This document shows, one piece after another, positions 4,902-59,654 of a stretch of DNA of 64,000 nucleotides (its first letter is position 1; the number at the start of each line of letters is the position of its first letter). This stretch comes from Kaiparowitsia implicata GSE-PSE-MK54-09C. Lineage in GTDB: Bacteria > Cyanobacteriota > Cyanobacteriia > Elainellales > Elainellaceae. The notes beneath the pieces were generated by a model. The model was not told the origin of the DNA and ran no database searches. It saw only the letters and a program-made list of their open reading frames with translations. The position numbers were made by a program, and so were the translations under genes. The stretch covers positions 124,001-188,000 of the forward strand of contig JAHHHI010000056.1 in assembly GCA_019359435.1 (NCBI GenBank), given 5' to 3'.

Positions 4902-5892
4902 ATGCCCGCCTTCTCCTGTGCTGACGAATCGTGCCAGGCGGCAGAATCGCCCATCGGCAGTGCCGCCCACCACGCCGCCTACGTGGTGCTGGAATGCCCG
5001 CCCCCGTGGCCCAGCGACGACTTGAGCGCCCCCCCAATTCCAGAAGCCCTGAGGCAGTTGAGCCACAGCTTAACCCCCAGCGGTCAGCGCGTCCGCTGGT
5101 TGCTGGTGCACGCCCCCCACGATCCCCCGGCCGAGGGCCTGCGCCTCTCGGTCTTTCAGCAGCCGTCAGGTTTATCCGAGGGCTATCACCAGCAAGCCTT
5201 TCAGGTGCCCAGCCTAGAGGCAGCGGCCCCGGTGATTCGGGCCGCTCTGAGGGGGCAGCCCGTCACCGATTGGCAAGTGGCGAATTCTTACCGGGAGCTG
5301 TTGATTTGCACCCACGGCAGCCACGATCGCTGTTGCGGGCGTTACGGTCTGCCCTTCTACCGGCAAGCCCTTACCCTGCTCAGCGAGGCCCAACAGCAGA
5401 ACGTGCGGATCTGGCAGGCCAGCCATTTTAGTGGTCATCGCTTTGCCCCCACCGTTCTGACCTTTCCCGACGGTCGCTACTATGGCCGCCTCAATCTCGC
5501 CGCCCTACGGGTGTTGATCAACCGCCAAGGCAACCTGCAAACGCTCATGCCCTGCTACCGGGGCTGGGGAATTTTACCCGACCCCGGTAGCAGGGCATGA
5601 GCGGGATCTCTGGCTGCGCCACGGCTGGGCCTGGCTAGGGCACCGCATTCAGTCCAAAATTTTGGCGCAGACCCCAACCCACACGGAGATTGAGCTAGTG
5701 GCCCAGTCGCCTACCGGAGCCTGTACCCGCTACGGCGGCGTGGTCGCAGCAGATTGCCAGCCCCCTTTAATCCTCCACGGGGAGTGCAGCAGTCGCCCCG
5801 ACGAAGTCTACGAATTCCCTCAGTTTGAGCTGATCGACCCGATTTCAATCGACCCAATCTCAATCGTCCCCATTACCGACCCGGCCTGCTGA
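4902..5892 (+). pseudogene. Sucrase/ferredoxin-like (Apd1/Aim32-type) thioredoxin-fold Fe-S protein, frameshifted
   Basis: The frame from ATG 4902 (2 bp after the receptor stop) ends early at TGA 5598-5600, after 232 residues. The rest of the family sequence (ERDLWLRHGW and onward) continues in the +1 frame to 5892. One extra base near 5580 explains the shift. Corrected length is about 329 residues, normal for the family. The candidate [2Fe-2S] ligands are present: C136 and C145 (C-x8-C) and H175/H179 (HFSGH), the bis-His pattern known for Apd1-type proteins. These lie before the shift, so a truncated product could keep the cluster. The role in reducing ferric siderophore is inferred from the neighbours. 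The shift coincides with the inverted repeat at 5542-5603; a sequencing error is possible. Confidence 0.82.
5542..5603. repeat. Perfect 22-bp inverted repeat at the frameshift site
   Basis: Left arm 5542-5563 and right arm 5582-5603 are perfect reverse complements separated by 18 bp. The core is CATGCCCTGCTACCGGGG and its complement. The repeat lies inside coding sequence. The right arm encodes PVAGHE in the downstream frame, and the frame changes between the arms. Confidence 0.95.
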
Positions 5893-14634: not shown

Positions 14635-16536
14635 ATGCCTTCCATCTGGCAATTACTCTGGCAACTGATCCGCTACGCCCAGCGGCTCTACTGGGTTGAT
14701 ACCCTACTGTGGCTCTGTATTGCGGGGCTGCCCATTTTGCCGGGGCTGTTGATTCGCGAATTTTTTGACAGCCTTACCGAGCAGTCTCGGCTAGACGGGT
14801 CGCCGGGGGTATGGGTGGCGCTGCTGTTGGCGACGGGGCTGGCGCGGGTGGTGGCGATTTTTTTGGGGCGGATCACCAAAACCCAGCATCGGTTTTTGAT
14901 CAGTGCCTTGGTGCGCCACAATCTGCTGCTGGGGCTGCTCAACCGCCCCGGCGCTGAGCTAGCGACAGGCAACACCTCCCCTGGGGAGATGCTGAGCTTT
15001 TTTCGTGATGACGCCAGCCAGATTGAAGACAATGTGGTGGGCACCAACGAGATCTTGGCCGAGGCGGTGTTTGCCGTGGTGTCTATGGCGCTGATGCTGA
15101 GCGTCAATGCCAGAATGACGCTGCTGGTGTTTTTGCCGCTGTGCCTGATTACGGCGATTGTGCGGCGGGCCGAGCATCGCCTGAAGCGCTACCGCCGGGC
15201 CAGCCGCCAGGCCACCCAGCAGGTGACGGGGCTAATTGGCGAAATGGTGACGGCGGTGCAGGCGATTAAGGTGGCCGGGGCTGAGGCCCAAATGCTGGAA
15301 GAATTGCAAGGAAGGTGCGATCGCCGCCGTCAGTTCATGATCCGCGACCAGGTGTTCAGCGCCATCCTCAACTCCGGCTTCGAGAGCATTCTCAGCCTCG
15401 GCACCGGCCTCATTCTGCTGCTGGCCGCCCCCAGCCTTGGCCCTCAGGGCACCCTTACCCTCGGCGACTTTGCCCTGTTTATCTACTACCTCTCCTTTAT
15501 CACCTTTTTCTTCGGCTTCCTGGGCAGCTTTCTCGCCGTTACCAAGCAGAGCGAAGTATCGTTCGAGCGCATGGGGGGCTTGGTGGGAGTAGATCAGCGG
15601 ATGGGTGGATGGGTGGATGAGTCCCGCCCATCCATCCATCCACCCATCCACCCTCTCACCCATCCCCACCCCCTCTACCTCAAACCCATCCTCGGCTCCC
15701 AGCCGGCCCTTCCGGCTATGCCTCAACCGCCAGAGACCGAGGCGCTGCAAGCAATCCGGGTGGAGGGGCTGACCTACCGCTATCCCGGCAGCGACGCGGG
15801 CATTACCGATGTCAGCTTTACCCTGCCCCAGGGCGGCTTGACAGTGATTACCGGACGGGTGGGCGCGGGTAAAACCACCCTGCTGCGGGTGCTGCTGGGG
15901 CTATTGCCGATGCAGTCGGGGGCACTGTTTTGGAATGACCAGCAGATTCACGACCCGGCCAATTTTCTGGTGCCGCCTCGGGCGGCCTACACGCCCCAAA
16001 TTCCGCAGCTCTTTAGCACTTCGCTGCGGGAGAATCTGCTACTGGGTCTAGACGAGGCGGCTGCCCCTAACCGCTTAGAAAAGGCGATCGCCGCCGCCGT
16101 CTTCGACCAAGACCTAGCCACCATGCCCAACGGCCTCGACACCCTGATCGGCACCCGAGGCGTGCGCCTCTCCGGCGGCCAAAAGCAGCGGGCCGCCGCC
16201 GCCCGCATGCTGCTGCGCCAGCCCGCCCTGATGGTCTTTGACGACCTCTCCAGCGCCCTCGACGTGGAGACCGAACAGCGCCTCTGGCAACAATTATTTG
16301 ACAGTGAAGACGTGAAGCATAGTGAAATCCTTTCCACCCATCCACCCATCCACCCATCCACCCTTTACCCCTTTACCCCTTCACCTCTTCACCCCACCAC
16401 CCCACCACCCCATCACTCCCGCCCCACCTGCCTCGTTGTCTCCCACCGCCCTGCCGTACTCAACCGGGCTAACCAAGTGCTCTTTTTGGAAGCGGGTAGC
16501 GTGGTCGATCGCACTACCAGCCCACCATTGACGTAA
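14635..16536 (+). CDS. Exporter-fold ABC transporter, fused permease/ATPase 1
   Basis: A 633-residue half-transporter: a transmembrane domain with hydrophobic segments through about residue 310, then an ATPase domain. Walker A is GRVGAGKTT at 407, the signature LSGGQ at 512, Walker B LMVFDD at 532-537 and the H-loop His at 604. The residue after the Walker B Asp is Asp, not the usual catalytic Glu, which suggests one degenerate ATP site. Two low-complexity inserts made of a CATCCACC minisatellite lie at about 323-345 (TMD-NBD linker) and about 565-595 (between Walker B and the H-loop). It is a likely heterodimer partner of the gene at 21643. A role in siderophore export, or IrtAB-like import, is inferred from context. 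Confidence 0.88.
   Translation: MPSIWQLLWQLIRYAQRLYWVDTLLWLCIAGLPILPGLLIREFFDSLTEQSRLDGSPGVWVALLLATGLARVVAIFLGRITKTQHRFLISALVRHNLLLGLLNRPGAELATGNTSPGEMLSFFRDDASQIEDNVVGTNEILAEAVFAVVSMALMLSVNARMTLLVFLPLCLITAIVRRAEHRLKRYRRASRQATQQVTGLIGEMVTAVQAIKVAGAEAQMLEELQGRCDRRRQFMIRDQVFSAILNSGFESILSLGTGLILLLAAPSLGPQGTLTLGDFALFIYYLSFITFFFGFLGSFLAVTKQSEVSFERMGGLVGVDQRMGGWVDESRPSIHPPIHPLTHPHPLYLKPILGSQPALPAMPQPPETEALQAIRVEGLTYRYPGSDAGITDVSFTLPQGGLTVITGRVGAGKTTLLRVLLGLLPMQSGALFWNDQQIHDPANFLVPPRAAYTPQIPQLFSTSLRENLLLGLDEAAAPNRLEKAIAAAVFDQDLATMPNGLDTLIGTRGVRLSGGQKQRAAAARMLLRQPALMVFDDLSSALDVETEQRLWQQLFDSEDVKHSEILSTHPPIHPSTLYPFTPSPLHPTTPPPHHSRPTCLVVSHRPAVLNRANQVLFLEAGSVVDRTTSPPLT
15601..15667. repeat. 8-bp minisatellite hairpin inside ABC exporter 1 (linker)
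   Basis: Three ATGGGTGG-type units are followed by a complementary CATCCACC tract, giving an inverted structure. The tract is translated in frame as GGWVDES and PSIHPPIHP. Confidence 0.9.
16332..16419. repeat. CATCCACC-type tract inside ABC exporter 1 (ATPase domain)
   Basis: Four CCACCCAT units degrade into CCCTTTAC and CACCACCC repeats. They are translated as HPPIHPST, TPSPLHP and similar. The tract enlarges the segment between Walker B and the H-loop to about twice its usual length. Confidence 0.85.
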
Positions 16537-17777: not shown

Positions 17778-20417
17778 ATGAATCAACGACAGCGATCGAC
17801 TTGGGTGGCGGGGGCTCTGCTGGTGCTGATGGCTGGCCCAGCTTGGGCCGAGGCAACGCCAGAGCTTGAAGGTCAGGGGGCAAATGTTGTGACCGAAGTG
17901 CCCCGTGGCGGAGCTACGGTGCAGGAGAGTGAAAGGGCGGCAGAACCCTCTCTGCTCAGCCAGGTTGAGCAACCTGCCACCACGATAGATGAATGGTGGG
18001 CTGAAATTGCCCAGGCAATGGCCCAAATTACGGCGGTGAGGCTCAATCCTACCGCTGACGGCGTGGAGGTGGTTTTAGAAACGTCGGCGGAGCTAGCCGC
18101 GTCGTCGTCGGTGGTGGGCAATGCGCTGATTGTGGATATCGCCAACGCAACCCTGGCGCTGCCAGAGGGCGGTGAGTTTCAGGCCGCCAACCCGACTGAG
18201 GGCATTGCGTTGGTGAGCGTGGTGCCGCTGGGGGATGGGGTGCGAGTGGCGATCACGGGTGCAGAGGCTCCCCCCACTGCGGCAATTAATGCAGCGGCGC
18301 AGCGCTTAGTGTTGTCTGTCGCCAGAGGTACGGCAACGACTGCCTCTGACGAAGAGGCCATTCAGGTAGTAGTGACAGCTACCCGCAGTGAGGCAGAGAC
18401 AACGACGATTCCCCGGTCGGTGACGGTGATTACCCAGCAGGCGATTCAGCAGCAGACCTCCCTCAGCCGAGATTTGAACGATATTTTAGGGAACCTGGTG
18501 CCGGGCTTAGCCCCCTCCTCAGAACGGGCGTTTACAGCGGCTTCGCTGCGGGGCCGGGATGCCGCCATTTTGATCGATGGGGTGCCGCAGAATGTCAATA
18601 ACCGCGACTTTGACCGCGAGCTGCGCACCCTCGACCCCAGCATCATTGAGCGCATTGAGGTGGTGCGCGGCCCCAGCGCCATCTACGGGGGTGGGGCGAC
18701 CGGCGGCATTATCAACATCATTACGCGGCAGCCCGACGAGGCTGACGTTAGTGCCACCTCAGAGGTGAGCGTCAATTCGGCCCTGGGGAGTTTGCAGGCT
18801 GAGAGTTTTGGCTACTTTGCCCGGCAGACGGTCTCGGCTAGGAATGGCAATGCTGACATTCTGGCTTCACTGTCGCGGGCTGATGCAGGGGGGCTGTTTG
18901 ATGGACAGGGCGATCGCATTCCCACCGTCCAGGGCACCGACGAGAATGAAAATGTCGCGCTGCTCACCCGCCTGGGCTACAGGCCCGATGACAACCAACG
19001 CCTCCAGTTCTCCCTCAACTACTACCGCGAAAGCCGCAACAGCGACGTGATCGCCGACCCCAGCGTCGATGATGCTGACCCCGGAGAACGTAAGGCCAGC
19101 GCCCTCCAGATCGGACAGCTCCGCTTTCCCGAAGGGGGCGGTCCCCAGGCCGATCGCAACCTGGTCTTAAACCTAAGCTATCGCCACGACAATGTGCTGA
19201 ACGGCAGCCTTGATAGCCAGCTCTACTACCGCGACAACTCGACCCGCAGCGACCCGCGCGATCGCAGACCTCGGCCCTTCGGCATTTTCCAAGGAAATCT
19301 AGAGTCTGAAAACTGGGGCGGTCGCCTGGGCCTAAACACCCCCCTGGGCGACTCCCTGAGCCTGCTGTGGGGCGCTGACTACAACCACGAAACCACCGCC
19401 AACACCTTTAATCTGTTTGACCCCAACGCCTTCGATGCCAGCAATGGCCGGGTCAACCGGTTAATCGAGCAGCGCCCCCTGGTGCCGCCATACACCCTCA
19501 GCAGCCTGGGGCTGTTTTCTCAGCTCCAGTGGCAGACCACCGACTGGTTGCAGCTGTCGGGCGGCCTGCGCCACGAGCGCATTGGCTTTTCGGTGGGCGA
19601 CTACACTACCTTTTTTGGTGACCCGATCGCAGGGGGCGATCGCAGCTTTAGCGACACCGCCTTCAACGCTGGCGCAGTGGCCGATGTCACCCCCGAAATC
19701 AGCCTATTCGCCAACTTTGCCCAGGGCTTTTCGGTGCCTGATTTTGGCGTGGTGCTAGGCTTTGCCGACCCCGACTTCACCGTCAATTCAGACGTGCAGG
19801 TCAACCAGCCCCAAAAAGTCAGCGAGTATGAAGTCGGCATTCGCGGTAACTGGAACACCGTGCAGGCGTCAATCTCAGGGTTTTACAACACCTCTGAGTT
19901 AGGCTCTACCTTTGTGTTTGATGACGACACTGGCCTCTACGACCTAGTCCGAGCACCGGAGCGGGTCTACGGCCTAGAGGCCACCCTCGATGTGCAGCCC
20001 AGCCCCACCTGGCGCTTGGGCACCACCCTCAGCCTGATCGGCGGCGAAGCCGATCTAGACGACACTGGCGAATTTACCGCCATCAGCAGCACCCGCATTC
20101 AACCCCTCAAGCTCACCGCCTATGTAGAAAATGAAACCCTGCCCGGCTGGCGCAACCGCCTCCAACTGCTGTATGTGGGCAGCCGCAGCGCCGCCTTTGA
20201 CGCCGAGGTTGACCCCAGCCCGATCAACAGCTACGCCGTGGTGGATTTGATCAGCAGCGTCGATGTCGGCCCCGGCACCCTCGCCATTGGGATCAACAAC
20301 CTGTTTGACACCCTCTATTTCCCCGCCTACGCCCAGCGCACCGCCGGGTTTTCTAACACCTTTAACAGTGCTGGCTCTGGGCGACGGGTGTCGGTGGGGT
20401 ATCGGGTGACGTTTTAG
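17778..20417 (+). CDS. AMIN-domain TonB-dependent siderophore receptor, module 3
   Basis: A 879-residue outer-membrane receptor from ATG 17778, with GGGTGGAG just before it; TTG 17751 is a weaker alternative. A signal peptide ends at AWAEA. The AMIN domain spans about residues 84-181. The plug spans 195-319 (VVVTATRSEAETTTIPRSVT through IERIEVVRGPSAIYGGGATG to IINIITRQP). The barrel ends in GYRVTF. It is clearly closest to receptor 1 over the whole length (NLVPGLAPSS, FANFAQGFSVPD, GLEATLDVQP), pointing to a duplication. Composition is uniform, unlike receptors 2 and 4. Confidence 0.94.
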   Translation: MNQRQRSTWVAGALLVLMAGPAWAEATPELEGQGANVVTEVPRGGATVQESERAAEPSLLSQVEQPATTIDEWWAEIAQAMAQITAVRLNPTADGVEVVLETSAELAASSSVVGNALIVDIANATLALPEGGEFQAANPTEGIALVSVVPLGDGVRVAITGAEAPPTAAINAAAQRLVLSVARGTATTASDEEAIQVVVTATRSEAETTTIPRSVTVITQQAIQQQTSLSRDLNDILGNLVPGLAPSSERAFTAASLRGRDAAILIDGVPQNVNNRDFDRELRTLDPSIIERIEVVRGPSAIYGGGATGGIINIITRQPDEADVSATSEVSVNSALGSLQAESFGYFARQTVSARNGNADILASLSRADAGGLFDGQGDRIPTVQGTDENENVALLTRLGYRPDDNQRLQFSLNYYRESRNSDVIADPSVDDADPGERKASALQIGQLRFPEGGGPQADRNLVLNLSYRHDNVLNGSLDSQLYYRDNSTRSDPRDRRPRPFGIFQGNLESENWGGRLGLNTPLGDSLSLLWGADYNHETTANTFNLFDPNAFDASNGRVNRLIEQRPLVPPYTLSSLGLFSQLQWQTTDWLQLSGGLRHERIGFSVGDYTTFFGDPIAGGDRSFSDTAFNAGAVADVTPEISLFANFAQGFSVPDFGVVLGFADPDFTVNSDVQVNQPQKVSEYEVGIRGNWNTVQASISGFYNTSELGSTFVFDDDTGLYDLVRAPERVYGLEATLDVQPSPTWRLGTTLSLIGGEADLDDTGEFTAISSTRIQPLKLTAYVENETLPGWRNRLQLLYVGSRSAAFDAEVDPSPINSYAVVDLISSVDVGPGTLAIGINNLFDTLYFPAYAQRTAGFSNTFNSAGSGRRVSVGYRVTF

Positions 20418-20560
20418 GAGGGTGGATGGGTGGATGGGTGGATGGGTGGATGGGTGGATGGGTAGAGACTATTGACTATCCATCTCTGACCCCCAATCAT
20501 CAACTACTTACCCATCCACCCCCTACTCGCCCACTCGCCCACTCATCCACCCGCCCACTC
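20418..20560. repeat. Intergenic 8-bp minisatellite (GGTGGATG)n with complementary tract
   Basis: About five GGTGGATG units start one base after the receptor 3 stop. They are followed, after a short spacer, by ACCCATCCACCCC and CGCCCACTC repeats, which could fold back. The tract fills most of the gap to the binding-protein gene. Confidence 0.9.
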
Positions 20561-20574
20561 CCCCACAACGACCT

Positions 20575-21642: not shown

Positions 21643-23454
21643 ATGGGTACTTCTCGGTCGTTTTATCGCCAACTGCTGACCACGTATCTCCGCCCTTTGC
21701 AACGGCAGGTGCTGTGGCTGGCGCTGACGCTGCTGGGCAGCATTGGGCTCCAGGTGCTCAATCCGCAGCTGTTGCGCTACTTCATTGATGCCGCCGTTGC
21801 CGCAGCGCCGCAGCGAGTACTGGGGCTGGTGGCCCTGGGGTTTGTGGCGATCGCACTGGTGCGCCACGGTCTGGCGATCGCCGCCACCTACTTTGGCGAA
21901 ACCATCGCCTGGAGCGCTACCAACACCCTGCGCCTCGACCTGGCCCGCCATACCCTCAACCTCGACTTAGCTTTTCACAAAGCCCACACCCCCGGTGAGC
22001 TGATTGAGCGGGTCGATGGCGATGTCGATGCGCTTTCCCGCTTTTTCTCTCAGTTTGTGCTTCAGGTGGTAGGCAACGGCCTGCTGGTGGTGGGCGTATT
22101 GGCGGTGCTCTGGTGGGAAGACTGGCGCGCCGGACTGGGCCTCAGCCTTTTTGCCCTGGTGGCCCTAGGCGTTTTGGCCCGTCTGCAAGCCCTGGCGGTA
22201 GCACCCTGGCGCACCTACCGCCAAATTAGCGCTGAGTTCTACAGCTTTGTGGCCGAATACCTCAGCGGCCTCGAAGATATTCGCGCCAATGGGGCGGTCG
22301 GCTACGTGATGCATCGGTTTTACCGCATTCTCCGCCGCTGGCTGGCCGTCTTTCACCGCGCCCGCTTTACCAGCACCCTGCTGTGGGGCAGCACCGTGGG
22401 GCTGTTTACGATGGGCAATGCGATCGCCCTCGCCCTCGGGGCCTACCTATGGAACCGCAACGCCATCACCATCGGCACCGTCTATCTGCTGTTTTACTAC
22501 GCCACCCTGCTCCAAGACCCGATCGAGCGCATTCGCGAAGAACTCGAACAGTTTCAGCAAGCCGCCGCCAGCCTGCAACGCGTTCAAGACCTGCTCAGCC
22601 ACCGCAGCCAGCTTCGCCCCGGCGGGCAAGCGGTGCTGCCCACTGGCCCGCTGTCGGTGAAGTTTGATGGGGTGTGGTTTGGGTATGGGGAAAAGGGTGT
22701 GGATGGGTGGATGGGTGGATGGGTGGATGGGTCGGACTCATCCACCCGCCCACCCATCCACTCATCCACTCTTCAAAACCTCACCCTCCACCTCCCCCCC
22801 GGCCAAGTCCTCGGTCTGCTCGGTCGCACGGGCAGCGGAAAGAGCACCCTGGCCCGGCTGCTGCTGCGGCTCTACGATATTCAGCGGGGCGAGATTCGGC
22901 TCGGCGGGGTCGATATTGCCCAGCTGCCCCAGGCGGCGCTGCCCCACCATGTGGGTTTTGTCACTCAGGATGTGCAGATCTTTCAAACCACGGTGCGAAA
23001 CAATCTGACCTTTTTTAATGCCCACATTGCCGACCCAACGATTTTGCAGACCCTAGACGATCTGGGGCTGCTGCCCTGGCTGGAGGGGCTACCCCAGGGG
23101 CTAGATACGGAGCTGGGGGCCGATAGCGGTGGGCTGTCGGCGGGGCAGGCGCAGCTGCTGGCCTTTGCCCGAGTGTTTCTTAAAAATCCGGGCCTGGTGG
23201 TGCTGGATGAGGCGTCGTCACGACTCGACCCGCTGACGGAGCAGCTGATTGAGCGGGCGGTAGATCGACTCTTGGAAAATCGCACCGGCATTATCATCGC
23301 CCATCGGCTGAAGACGGTGGAGCGGGCTGACCAAATTTTGATTTTGGAGAAAGGGCAGGCGGTGGAGTACGGCGATCGCAGCGCCCTAGCCCAAGATCCC
23401 CAGTCGCGGTTTGCGCGCCTGCTCAGGGCGGGTGCGTTGCTCCCCCTGGGGTAG
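21643..23454 (+). CDS. Exporter-fold ABC transporter, fused permease/ATPase 2
   Basis: A 603-residue half-transporter from ATG 21643. The transmembrane domain runs to about residue 320. The ATPase has Walker A GRTGSGKST at 394, a variant signature LSAGQ at 498, canonical Walker B LVVLDE at 518-523 and H-loop His 554. It has the catalytic Glu that ABC exporter 1 lacks, so the two probably form a heterodimer with one consensus and one degenerate site. A minisatellite insert of about 22 residues (GVDGWMGGWVDGS and following) lies at about 353-375, between the FGYG strand and the next strand before Walker A. Context suggests siderophore transport; direction is not determined. Confidence 0.88.
   Translation: MGTSRSFYRQLLTTYLRPLQRQVLWLALTLLGSIGLQVLNPQLLRYFIDAAVAAAPQRVLGLVALGFVAIALVRHGLAIAATYFGETIAWSATNTLRLDLARHTLNLDLAFHKAHTPGELIERVDGDVDALSRFFSQFVLQVVGNGLLVVGVLAVLWWEDWRAGLGLSLFALVALGVLARLQALAVAPWRTYRQISAEFYSFVAEYLSGLEDIRANGAVGYVMHRFYRILRRWLAVFHRARFTSTLLWGSTVGLFTMGNAIALALGAYLWNRNAITIGTVYLLFYYATLLQDPIERIREELEQFQQAAASLQRVQDLLSHRSQLRPGGQAVLPTGPLSVKFDGVWFGYGEKGVDGWMGGWVDGSDSSTRPPIHSSTLQNLTLHLPPGQVLGLLGRTGSGKSTLARLLLRLYDIQRGEIRLGGVDIAQLPQAALPHHVGFVTQDVQIFQTTVRNNLTFFNAHIADPTILQTLDDLGLLPWLEGLPQGLDTELGADSGGLSAGQAQLLAFARVFLKNPGLVVLDEASSRLDPLTEQLIERAVDRLLENRTGIIIAHRLKTVERADQILILEKGQAVEYGDRSALAQDPQSRFARLLRAGALLPLG
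22700..22771. repeat. 8-bp minisatellite hairpin inside ABC exporter 2
   Basis: About four GGATGGGT units (22700-22732) are followed by TCCACCCGCCCACCCATCC-type complementary units. Both halves are translated in frame (DGWMGGWVDG, STRPPIHSST). The tract lies in the N-terminal part of the ATPase domain. Confidence 0.92.
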
Positions 23455-29596: not shown

Positions 29597-30456
29597 ATGA
29601 AAAATATCTTCTGCGCCGAGCAGTCTCAGCAATCTGGCGTCGATATTGTCGGTACCGCCTCTGAACACAGACTCTACGTGGCGATCGCCTGCCCGCCCCC
29701 CTGGACACCGCGTGAGTTAGAGTCTCCCGGCATCCCTGAGCACCTGCGCGAACTCGTTAGAGCCATTGGCGACGACTACAATCGCTACCAAACCCGCTTC
29801 TTACTCATCCACAACGAGCCCTTAAAGCAGGACAACCTCACCCGCGTGCTAGTCTTCCGCAAACCCTCCGGCTTCGCCAGCGCCTACGACAAGCAAGAAT
29901 TTCATCTAGCCAGCATTGACGAAGTGGCTCCCCTGGTGCGGCAGGTGGTGATGGGCGAACCGCTCAGCGCTACCCCAATGGAAGTGCCAACTCGCGACAT
30001 TTTGGTCTGCACCCACGGCAGCCGCGATCGCTGCTGTGCCCGCTTTGGCAACCCCATCTATCAGTAAGCCCTAAAATATCAGTAAGCCCTAAAAATTGTA
30101 AAAGAGCGATCGCTCCAAAACACCCGCATCTGGCAAGCCAGCCACATCGGTGCCACCGCATAGCCCCCACCGCCGTCACCTTTCCCGATGCCCGCTACTA
30201 CGGCTATCTAACCGCAGAATCGCTGACGGCAATTCTCACCCAGAGCGGCGATCTCAGCTGGGTCAGCCAGCAGTATCGAGGCTGCGGCCTCCTGCCCTGG
30301 GCTGCGCAGCACCTAGAGCGAGAGCTGATGATGACCCACGGCTGGCCCTAGTTTGGCTATGCTCTAGAGAGCCGAGTGCTCGCCCACAATGACGATGAAA
30401 ACATCAACCAGGTAGAGCTAGCGGTAGACCGAGGGGCAGACGATGGCGATCGCTAA
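29597..30456 (+). pseudogene. Sucrase/ferredoxin-like (Apd1/Aim32-type) Fe-S protein, degraded copy
   Basis: The first 156 residues are intact and include CTHGSRDRCC (C-x8-C ligand pair). The frame is then broken by TAA codons inside an 18-bp tandem duplication (30059-30094), by a frameshift near 30150 that separates RIWQASHIG from HRIAPTAVTFPDARYYGYL, and by an in-frame TAG near 30350 after HGWP. The homologous sequence can be followed to TAA 30454-30456. It is a paralogue of the gene at 4902 and ends module 4 as that gene sits in module 1. Several independent lesions make a sequencing artefact unlikely. Confidence 0.88.
30059..30094 (+). repeat. 18-bp perfect tandem duplication in the pseudogene
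   Basis: TATCAGTAAGCCCTAAAA occurs twice in a row (30059-30076, 30077-30094). Each copy carries TAA at the position where relatives have a Gln codon. Confidence 0.95.
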
Positions 30457-48116: not shown

Positions 48117-48240
48117 AACGTCAGTTCGGGTTGAGAGGGTTTTGGGGCATCGCGCGACGCGCGATGCCCCAAAACCCTTAATGTGCCGTACGCGTCGCGT
48201 ACGGCACATTAAGGGTTTGAGCTTATCCCGAACTCAGGTT
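48117..48240 (+). mobile_element. 124-bp palindromic MITE-like element, copy A
   Basis: It is bounded by imperfect terminal inverted repeats, AACGTCAGTTCGGG and the complement of AACCTGAGTTCGGG (12 of 14). Inside are two long hairpins: 48136-48155/48159-48178, and 48172-48193/48197-48218. They share the AACCC segment, so only one can form at a time. Copy B is the same length in the opposite orientation. No transposase is encoded. Confidence 0.85.
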
Positions 48241-55430: not shown

Positions 55431-55547
55431 GTTCGGGATAAGCTCAAACCCTCAATGTGTCGTGCGCGACGCGCACGACACATTGAGGGTTTTGGGGCAC
55501 CGCGCGTCGCGCGGTGCCCCAAAACCCCCTTAACCCGAACTGACGTT
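55424..55547 (-). mobile_element. 124-bp palindromic MITE-like element, copy B
   Basis: The reverse-complement orientation of copy A, with identical termini (AACCTGAGTTCGGG ... CCCGAACTGACGTT) and the same two overlapping hairpins. AATTC occurs immediately outside both ends, a candidate 5-bp target duplication; copy A has no equally clear one at the same tips. The element supplies the stop codon of the amine oxidase gene. Confidence 0.85.
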
Positions 55548-58765: not shown

Positions 58766-59605
58766 ATGAATGTAGACGAACTGAAGAATCACTACGTGTC
58801 AGGCATCCGCGATTTTCGCGAGAGCGACTTCATCGGAGCTGACCTGAGTGGGCAAGACCTAAGAGAAGTGAATCTGCGGCGGGTAAACCTCACCGGAGCC
58901 AATCTCAGCCACGCCGACCTGAGCTTTGCCAACCTGCGAGAAGCCAACCTCACGGGTGCCAACCTGCGCGGCGCGAACCTCAGCCGCGCCAACTTGATTG
59001 GGTGTGAACTGTTGCGCGCCAACCTGTCTGACGCCAATCTAACTGAAGTGGGCCTGCGGGGTGCCAAACTGGTAGATGCGATCGCCCAATCCGCCAACTT
59101 CACTGGGGCCAACCTGGCAGAAGCCATTCTCGATCGACTCGATCTAACCAAAGCTGACCTCAGCGACGCCAGCCTCAATCGCTCCAAGCTAGTCGGCGTC
59201 AACCTCAGCTATGCCAACCTAGAAAACGCCAACCTCTCCAACGCCAACCTCAACGAAGCCAATCTAGAGGGCGGCTACTTGGTCTGCGCCATCTTGCAGG
59301 GAGCCAGCCTAGAGGAGGCAAACCTGCGAGATGCCGACCTCAGCCGCGCCCGCGTCAGCAGCGCCAACATGATCAATGCAAACCTGGTCAACGCCAGCCT
59401 CCGGGGCACCAACCTTAGCTGGACGTCCTTGCGTGGGGCGAACCTATGCAAGGCCAACCTCTACCGCGCTAACCTCAACTGGGCCAACCTGAGCGAAGCT
59501 GATCTCACGGAAACAGTCTTGATTAGCGCCAAGATCTACTGCGTCAACTTCCAAAACACCAACCTGTCCGGCACTCTCATGCCCGACGGTGTCCCCCACA
59601 TGTAA
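58766..59605 (+). CDS. Pentapeptide repeat protein
   Basis: A 279-residue protein from ATG 58766 (MNVDELKNHYVSGIRDFRES); the longer frame from 58679 adds sequence that does not resemble the family cap. About 48 tandem A(N/D)LXX units follow almost without a break (ANLTG, ANLRG, ANLSR, ANLSN), predicting a long beta-helix rod. The cap DELKNHYVSGIRDFRESDF resembles the start of the copy at 55734. Function unknown. Confidence 0.9.
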   Translation: MNVDELKNHYVSGIRDFRESDFIGADLSGQDLREVNLRRVNLTGANLSHADLSFANLREANLTGANLRGANLSRANLIGCELLRANLSDANLTEVGLRGAKLVDAIAQSANFTGANLAEAILDRLDLTKADLSDASLNRSKLVGVNLSYANLENANLSNANLNEANLEGGYLVCAILQGASLEEANLRDADLSRARVSSANMINANLVNASLRGTNLSWTSLRGANLCKANLYRANLNWANLSEADLTETVLISAKIYCVNFQNTNLSGTLMPDGVPHM

Positions 59606-59607
59606 AG

Positions 59608-59634
59608 GGTTTGGGGCACGGCGTGCCCCAAACC
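59608..59634. terminator. Hairpin between convergent pentapeptide and nrdJ genes
   Basis: A 12-bp perfect stem GGTTTGGGGCAC (59608-59619)/GTGCCCCAAACC (59623-59634) with a 3-nt loop, then GTTCCTT. It probably ends both convergent transcripts. Its stem resembles the GGTTTTGGGGCAC stem of the MITE-like elements. Confidence 0.72.
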
Positions 59635-59654
59635 GTTCCTTGTCTGAACAGAGG

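Follow-up and report, generated by a model that had tools for sequence, protein, structure and literature searches.

The Suc_Fer-like (PF06999) gene considered here lies in a stretch of 64,000 nucleotides of Kaiparowitsia implicata DNA (the window), which belongs to a 215 kb contig (C56) of a draft genome of 6.7 Mb in 109 contigs. Its start codon, ATG 4902, comes two bases past a gene for a TonB-dependent receptor, and its 3' neighbours encode a PF01497-type periplasmic binding protein and an AraC regulator. The match to PF06999, a family of the Apd1/Aim32 type (97.8 bits against a gathering score of 34.9; profile positions 2-191 of 191), is placed entirely 5' of a frameshift. No solved structure of any relative of the protein was found by sequence. 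The contig contains at least four Suc_Fer-like copies, the broken gene among them; the frames of two other copies (L032 and L042) are open, and the paralogue at 29606-30297 has decayed into a pseudogene that contains in-frame stops, a change of frame and a short tandem duplication in which TATCAGTAAGCCCTAAAA occurs twice.

The upstream frame is sound through YRGWGILP-D-P (the final P being CCC 5583-5585), and the next frame picks up at E-R (GAG CGG from 5599) and stays open up to TGA 5890-5892, the net shift being +1 nt. Both frames joined (4902-5889) amount to about 329 codons, inside the range of the homologues, whose single open frames are mostly about 315-360 aa. The sequence-only reading had described a perfect 22-bp inverted repeat at this frameshift, and this description holds: the two arms are exact reverse complements, with 22 of 22 bp paired, and the frame changes between 5585 and 5599 (Table 1). 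The stem is composed of 4 bp (GGGG/CCCC), 13 bp and 5 bp (CGCTC/GAGCG), and the tract at 5586-5598 is the exact reverse complement of 5547-5559. As DNA, the hairpin has a folding energy of -33.4 kcal/mol (z -12.7) and, as RNA, of -58.2 kcal/mol (z -13.1). The longest perfect arm obtained in 1500 codon shuffles of the same gene was 14 bp, against the 22 bp observed; perfect 22-bp arms are far beyond chance. No terminator was found at the palindrome site.

Table 1. Features of the broken Suc_Fer-like gene and its palindrome (positions in the window)
Feature	Position	Strand	Remarks
Suc_Fer-like (PF06999) ORF	4902..5600	+	shortened product of 232 aa, entire Pfam domain inside
Left arm (probable donor)	5542..5563	+	CGCTCATGCCCTGCTACCGGGG; in-frame TLMPCYRG
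Core, 13 nt, putative template for the right arm	5547..5559	+	ATGCCCTGCTACC; from sequence and inference
Loop, 18 nt	5564..5581	+	upstream frame codes for conserved WGILP
Right arm (probably derived)	5582..5603	+	CCCCGGTAGCAGGGCATGAGCG; CCCC + 13-nt copy + GAGCG
13-nt tract, probable source of the +1 shift	5586..5598	+	GGTAGCAGGGCAT; from homologue comparison and inference
Premature TGA of the upstream frame	5598..5600	+	within the right arm
C-terminal part of the same gene, +1 frame	5599..5892	+	ERDLWLRHGWAWL...; homologous to relatives, GC3 0.73

Inverted repeats with perfect arms of at least 18 bp were surveyed in 1.95 Mb of the genome. Among the 73 recovered, most of them short-looped and outside long open frames, the repeat at 5542-5603 stands alone in falling within a conserved coding region; of the rest, two (L190 and L230) touch open frames of at least 200 codons, near the edges only. 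An assembly-wide palindrome artefact was considered and rejected, as every other inverted repeat is outside long open frames, unless it sits at the edge of an open frame. Genome-wide, with up to three mismatches allowed, the arm sequence has no copy beyond these two sites. Elsewhere in the window, inverted repeats of 16-23 bp, perfect or nearly so and with loops of 1 nt, are found at 48136-48218 and 55446-55527, in both cases in adjacent pairs, and at 59605-59637; they belong to two families, AAACCCT[T/C]AATGTG[C/T]CGT[A/G]CGCG and AGGGTTTTGGGGCA[T/C]CGCGCG, both of which recur genome-wide, mostly outside long open frames. Simple repeats of the GTGGATGGGTGGATGG type are present on both strands (15596-15676, 20410-20570 and 22696-22780) and form several inverted repeats, one of them within a 462-codon open frame.

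All named homologues found are cyanobacterial, and no relative above 49% protein identity was detected in a DNA search of 60 relatives, in a protein search of 36 genomes of the family and 390 of the class, or in two scans of a collection of 84,980 species. Across 87 homologues, the consensus at the site is YRGW[GS]ILP-x-[PAS]-L-Q-V-L-E-R-E, with Y, R, G, L, Q and E unvarying. This comparison confirmed that relatives have another sequence in place of the right arm's PVAGHE: their equivalent is x-[L/I/M/V/A]-Q-x-x-E, most commonly LQVLE, and the Q and E of the replaced site are found in 87/87, as is the YRG of the left arm. Where 13 nt are present here, the homologues use 12 nt to encode LQVL or a similar motif, and the LQVL-type motif has become VAGH. 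The distance between the conserved residues on either side differs by just 1 nt, and sequence was therefore replaced rather than inserted. The possibility had been raised that in orthologues this palindrome accompanies an unbroken frame; the palindrome occurs in 0/87 homologues and this frame shift likewise in none, all of them running through the site in one frame.

As the left arm codes for the invariant YRG and the right arm has lost the invariant Q, the left arm is taken as the donor and the right arm as its copy, in agreement with the direction of copying proposed earlier. The left arm looks ancestral, to judge from this conserved YRG and from the LM-x-CYRGW that is also present in a distant homologue (L014). 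The ends of the right arm may predate the event, because one coincides with the codons that precede LQVL and the other with the conserved E-R. In the homologues the two sites are only weakly complementary, which speaks against the explanation preferred below, though GAGCG and CGGGG occur at the homologous sites in some. Passing from a homologue-like ancestor to the observed arm takes at least 4-5 edits; with local codon usage the typical number is about 10 (minimum 5), compared with about 13.5 for shuffled targets. This gap makes some complementarity before the event plausible, but part of it may only reflect arm ends that are still ancestral. Each of the edits would have to yield the exact complement of the left arm.

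We consider it probable (roughly 80%) that a quasipalindrome-templated template-switch mutation made the hairpin, eliminated the motif and shifted the frame, shortening the gene. During such an event, the nascent 3' end would copy the loop and CCCC, fold back and pair with the GGGG of the left arm; the 13 nt then copied would be the reverse complement of 5547-5559, and synthesis would return to the normal template via the GAGCG/CGCTC homology. The 12 nt coding for the conserved LQVL-type motif would thereby be overwritten by 13 nt, yielding the perfect 22-bp stem and the +1 frameshift. The GGGG/CCCC and CGCTC/GAGCG segments would be the natural switch and return homologies; their shortness, 4 and 5 bp respectively, is a point against this reading. 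Whereas the perfect arms, the shift, the replaced motif and the conserved donor are plain from the sequences compared, we infer the single event, its switch points and the ancestral quasipalindrome alike. The motif's replacement by an exact left-arm copy, the passage from 12 to 13 nt and the +1 change of frame all support the template-switch mechanism that the sequence-only reading had put forward; the observation is real, and a mutational mechanism already known accounts for it well.

The part of the gene beyond the break is still recognisable by comparison with the homologues (identity about 33% across 80 residues, E ~1e-12) and its GC3 is unchanged (0.73, with 0.76 in the upstream part), so that the change looks recent: either coding constraint on the gene stayed normal until a short time ago, or the additional base is erroneous. 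The shortened product retains the Suc_Fer domain and the upstream conserved Cys and His, and about 100 C-terminal residues are lost. Because the homologous tail and its GC3 suggest a gene that worked until recently or works even now, and because a strong hairpin and a C run are present at the site, we weighed a history in two steps, in which VAGH replaced the motif in frame, by template switching or otherwise, and the extra base came from a later slip or from a sequencing or assembly error; the gene may then be intact. We regard this history as unlikely, since the extra base is itself within the perfect pairing and one copy event covers both changes with no need for a second. A one-base error would not by itself account for an invariant motif having given way to an exact left-arm copy.

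It is much less credible that the entire palindrome arose as an artefact of the library or the assembly, that is, a fold-back chimera, even though it was seen in a draft assembly of 109 contigs. Fold-back chimeras are not known to rejoin the original sequence after 22 bases; here the tail carries on as the same gene after the palindrome, and a second case within a conserved gene is absent from the 1.95 Mb surveyed. A programmed +1 shift of the ribosome at the hairpin or at GCA-UGA, giving a full-length protein, would have the direction needed, with the stop sitting in the stem, and any +1 shift there gives back the length of the homologues; however, the hairpin and the shift are absent from all homologues, the invariant Q would be lost even so, and the site is unlike the prfB signal in slip codon and spacing, all of which makes this reading very improbable. 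We give similarly little credence to the hairpin as a working element, whether for a programmed +1 frameshift or as a reversible template-switch hotspot toggling between truncated and full-length forms of the ferredoxin-like protein. The many intergenic perfect inverted repeats of the genome could suggest a dispersed palindromic element inserted into the gene, but this candidate was rejected as practically negligible, being contradicted by an arm unique genome-wide at up to three mismatches and by a flank spacing kept to within 1 nt.

If the template-switch reading is right, this locus is a clear natural cyanobacterial case in which one event covers the loss of a conserved motif, the perfect hairpin and the indel that breaks the gene, where ordinary annotation would record a frameshift pseudogene and tally a number of separate changes. 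Such a case also indicates that a palindrome placed at a break in the frame can serve to distinguish templated mutation from random decay. Among the papers searched, none joined quasipalindrome, pseudogene and frameshift.

The closest known systems are those of E. coli, in which quasipalindrome mutations are templated by one arm (PMC6357072, PMC7202029) and "universally perfect the palindromic sequence", frameshifts included (PMC6357072). At the thyA hotspot and in the lacZ QP5/QP6 reporters (PMC6357072, PMC7202029), as proposed here, one arm serves as template for the other, the palindrome is perfected and an indel alters the frame of a coding gene; an 18-bp quasipalindrome in a reporter is close in size to the cyanobacterial one. 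In E. coli, however, the ancestor is known and the event was observed, whereas the cyanobacterial ancestor has to be reconstructed across about 45% protein identity, and in the cyanobacterium the copied core would replace an entire 13-nt stretch, unlike in E. coli. The homogenisation of inverted-repeat arms in Saccharomyces cerevisiae (PMC8604942) is likewise a natural switching between arms in coding DNA with clustered amino-acid changes, but the yeast cases were found between strains and reported as multinucleotide substitutions, and in the cyanobacterium the frame is shifted and the product truncated as well. The origin of RNA hairpins by template switching (Monttinen and Loytynoja, PMC8794818) similarly involves one reverse-complement copy that creates a perfect stem; those hairpins are a maintained RNA structure, whereas the cyanobacterial one is apparently damage to a gene.
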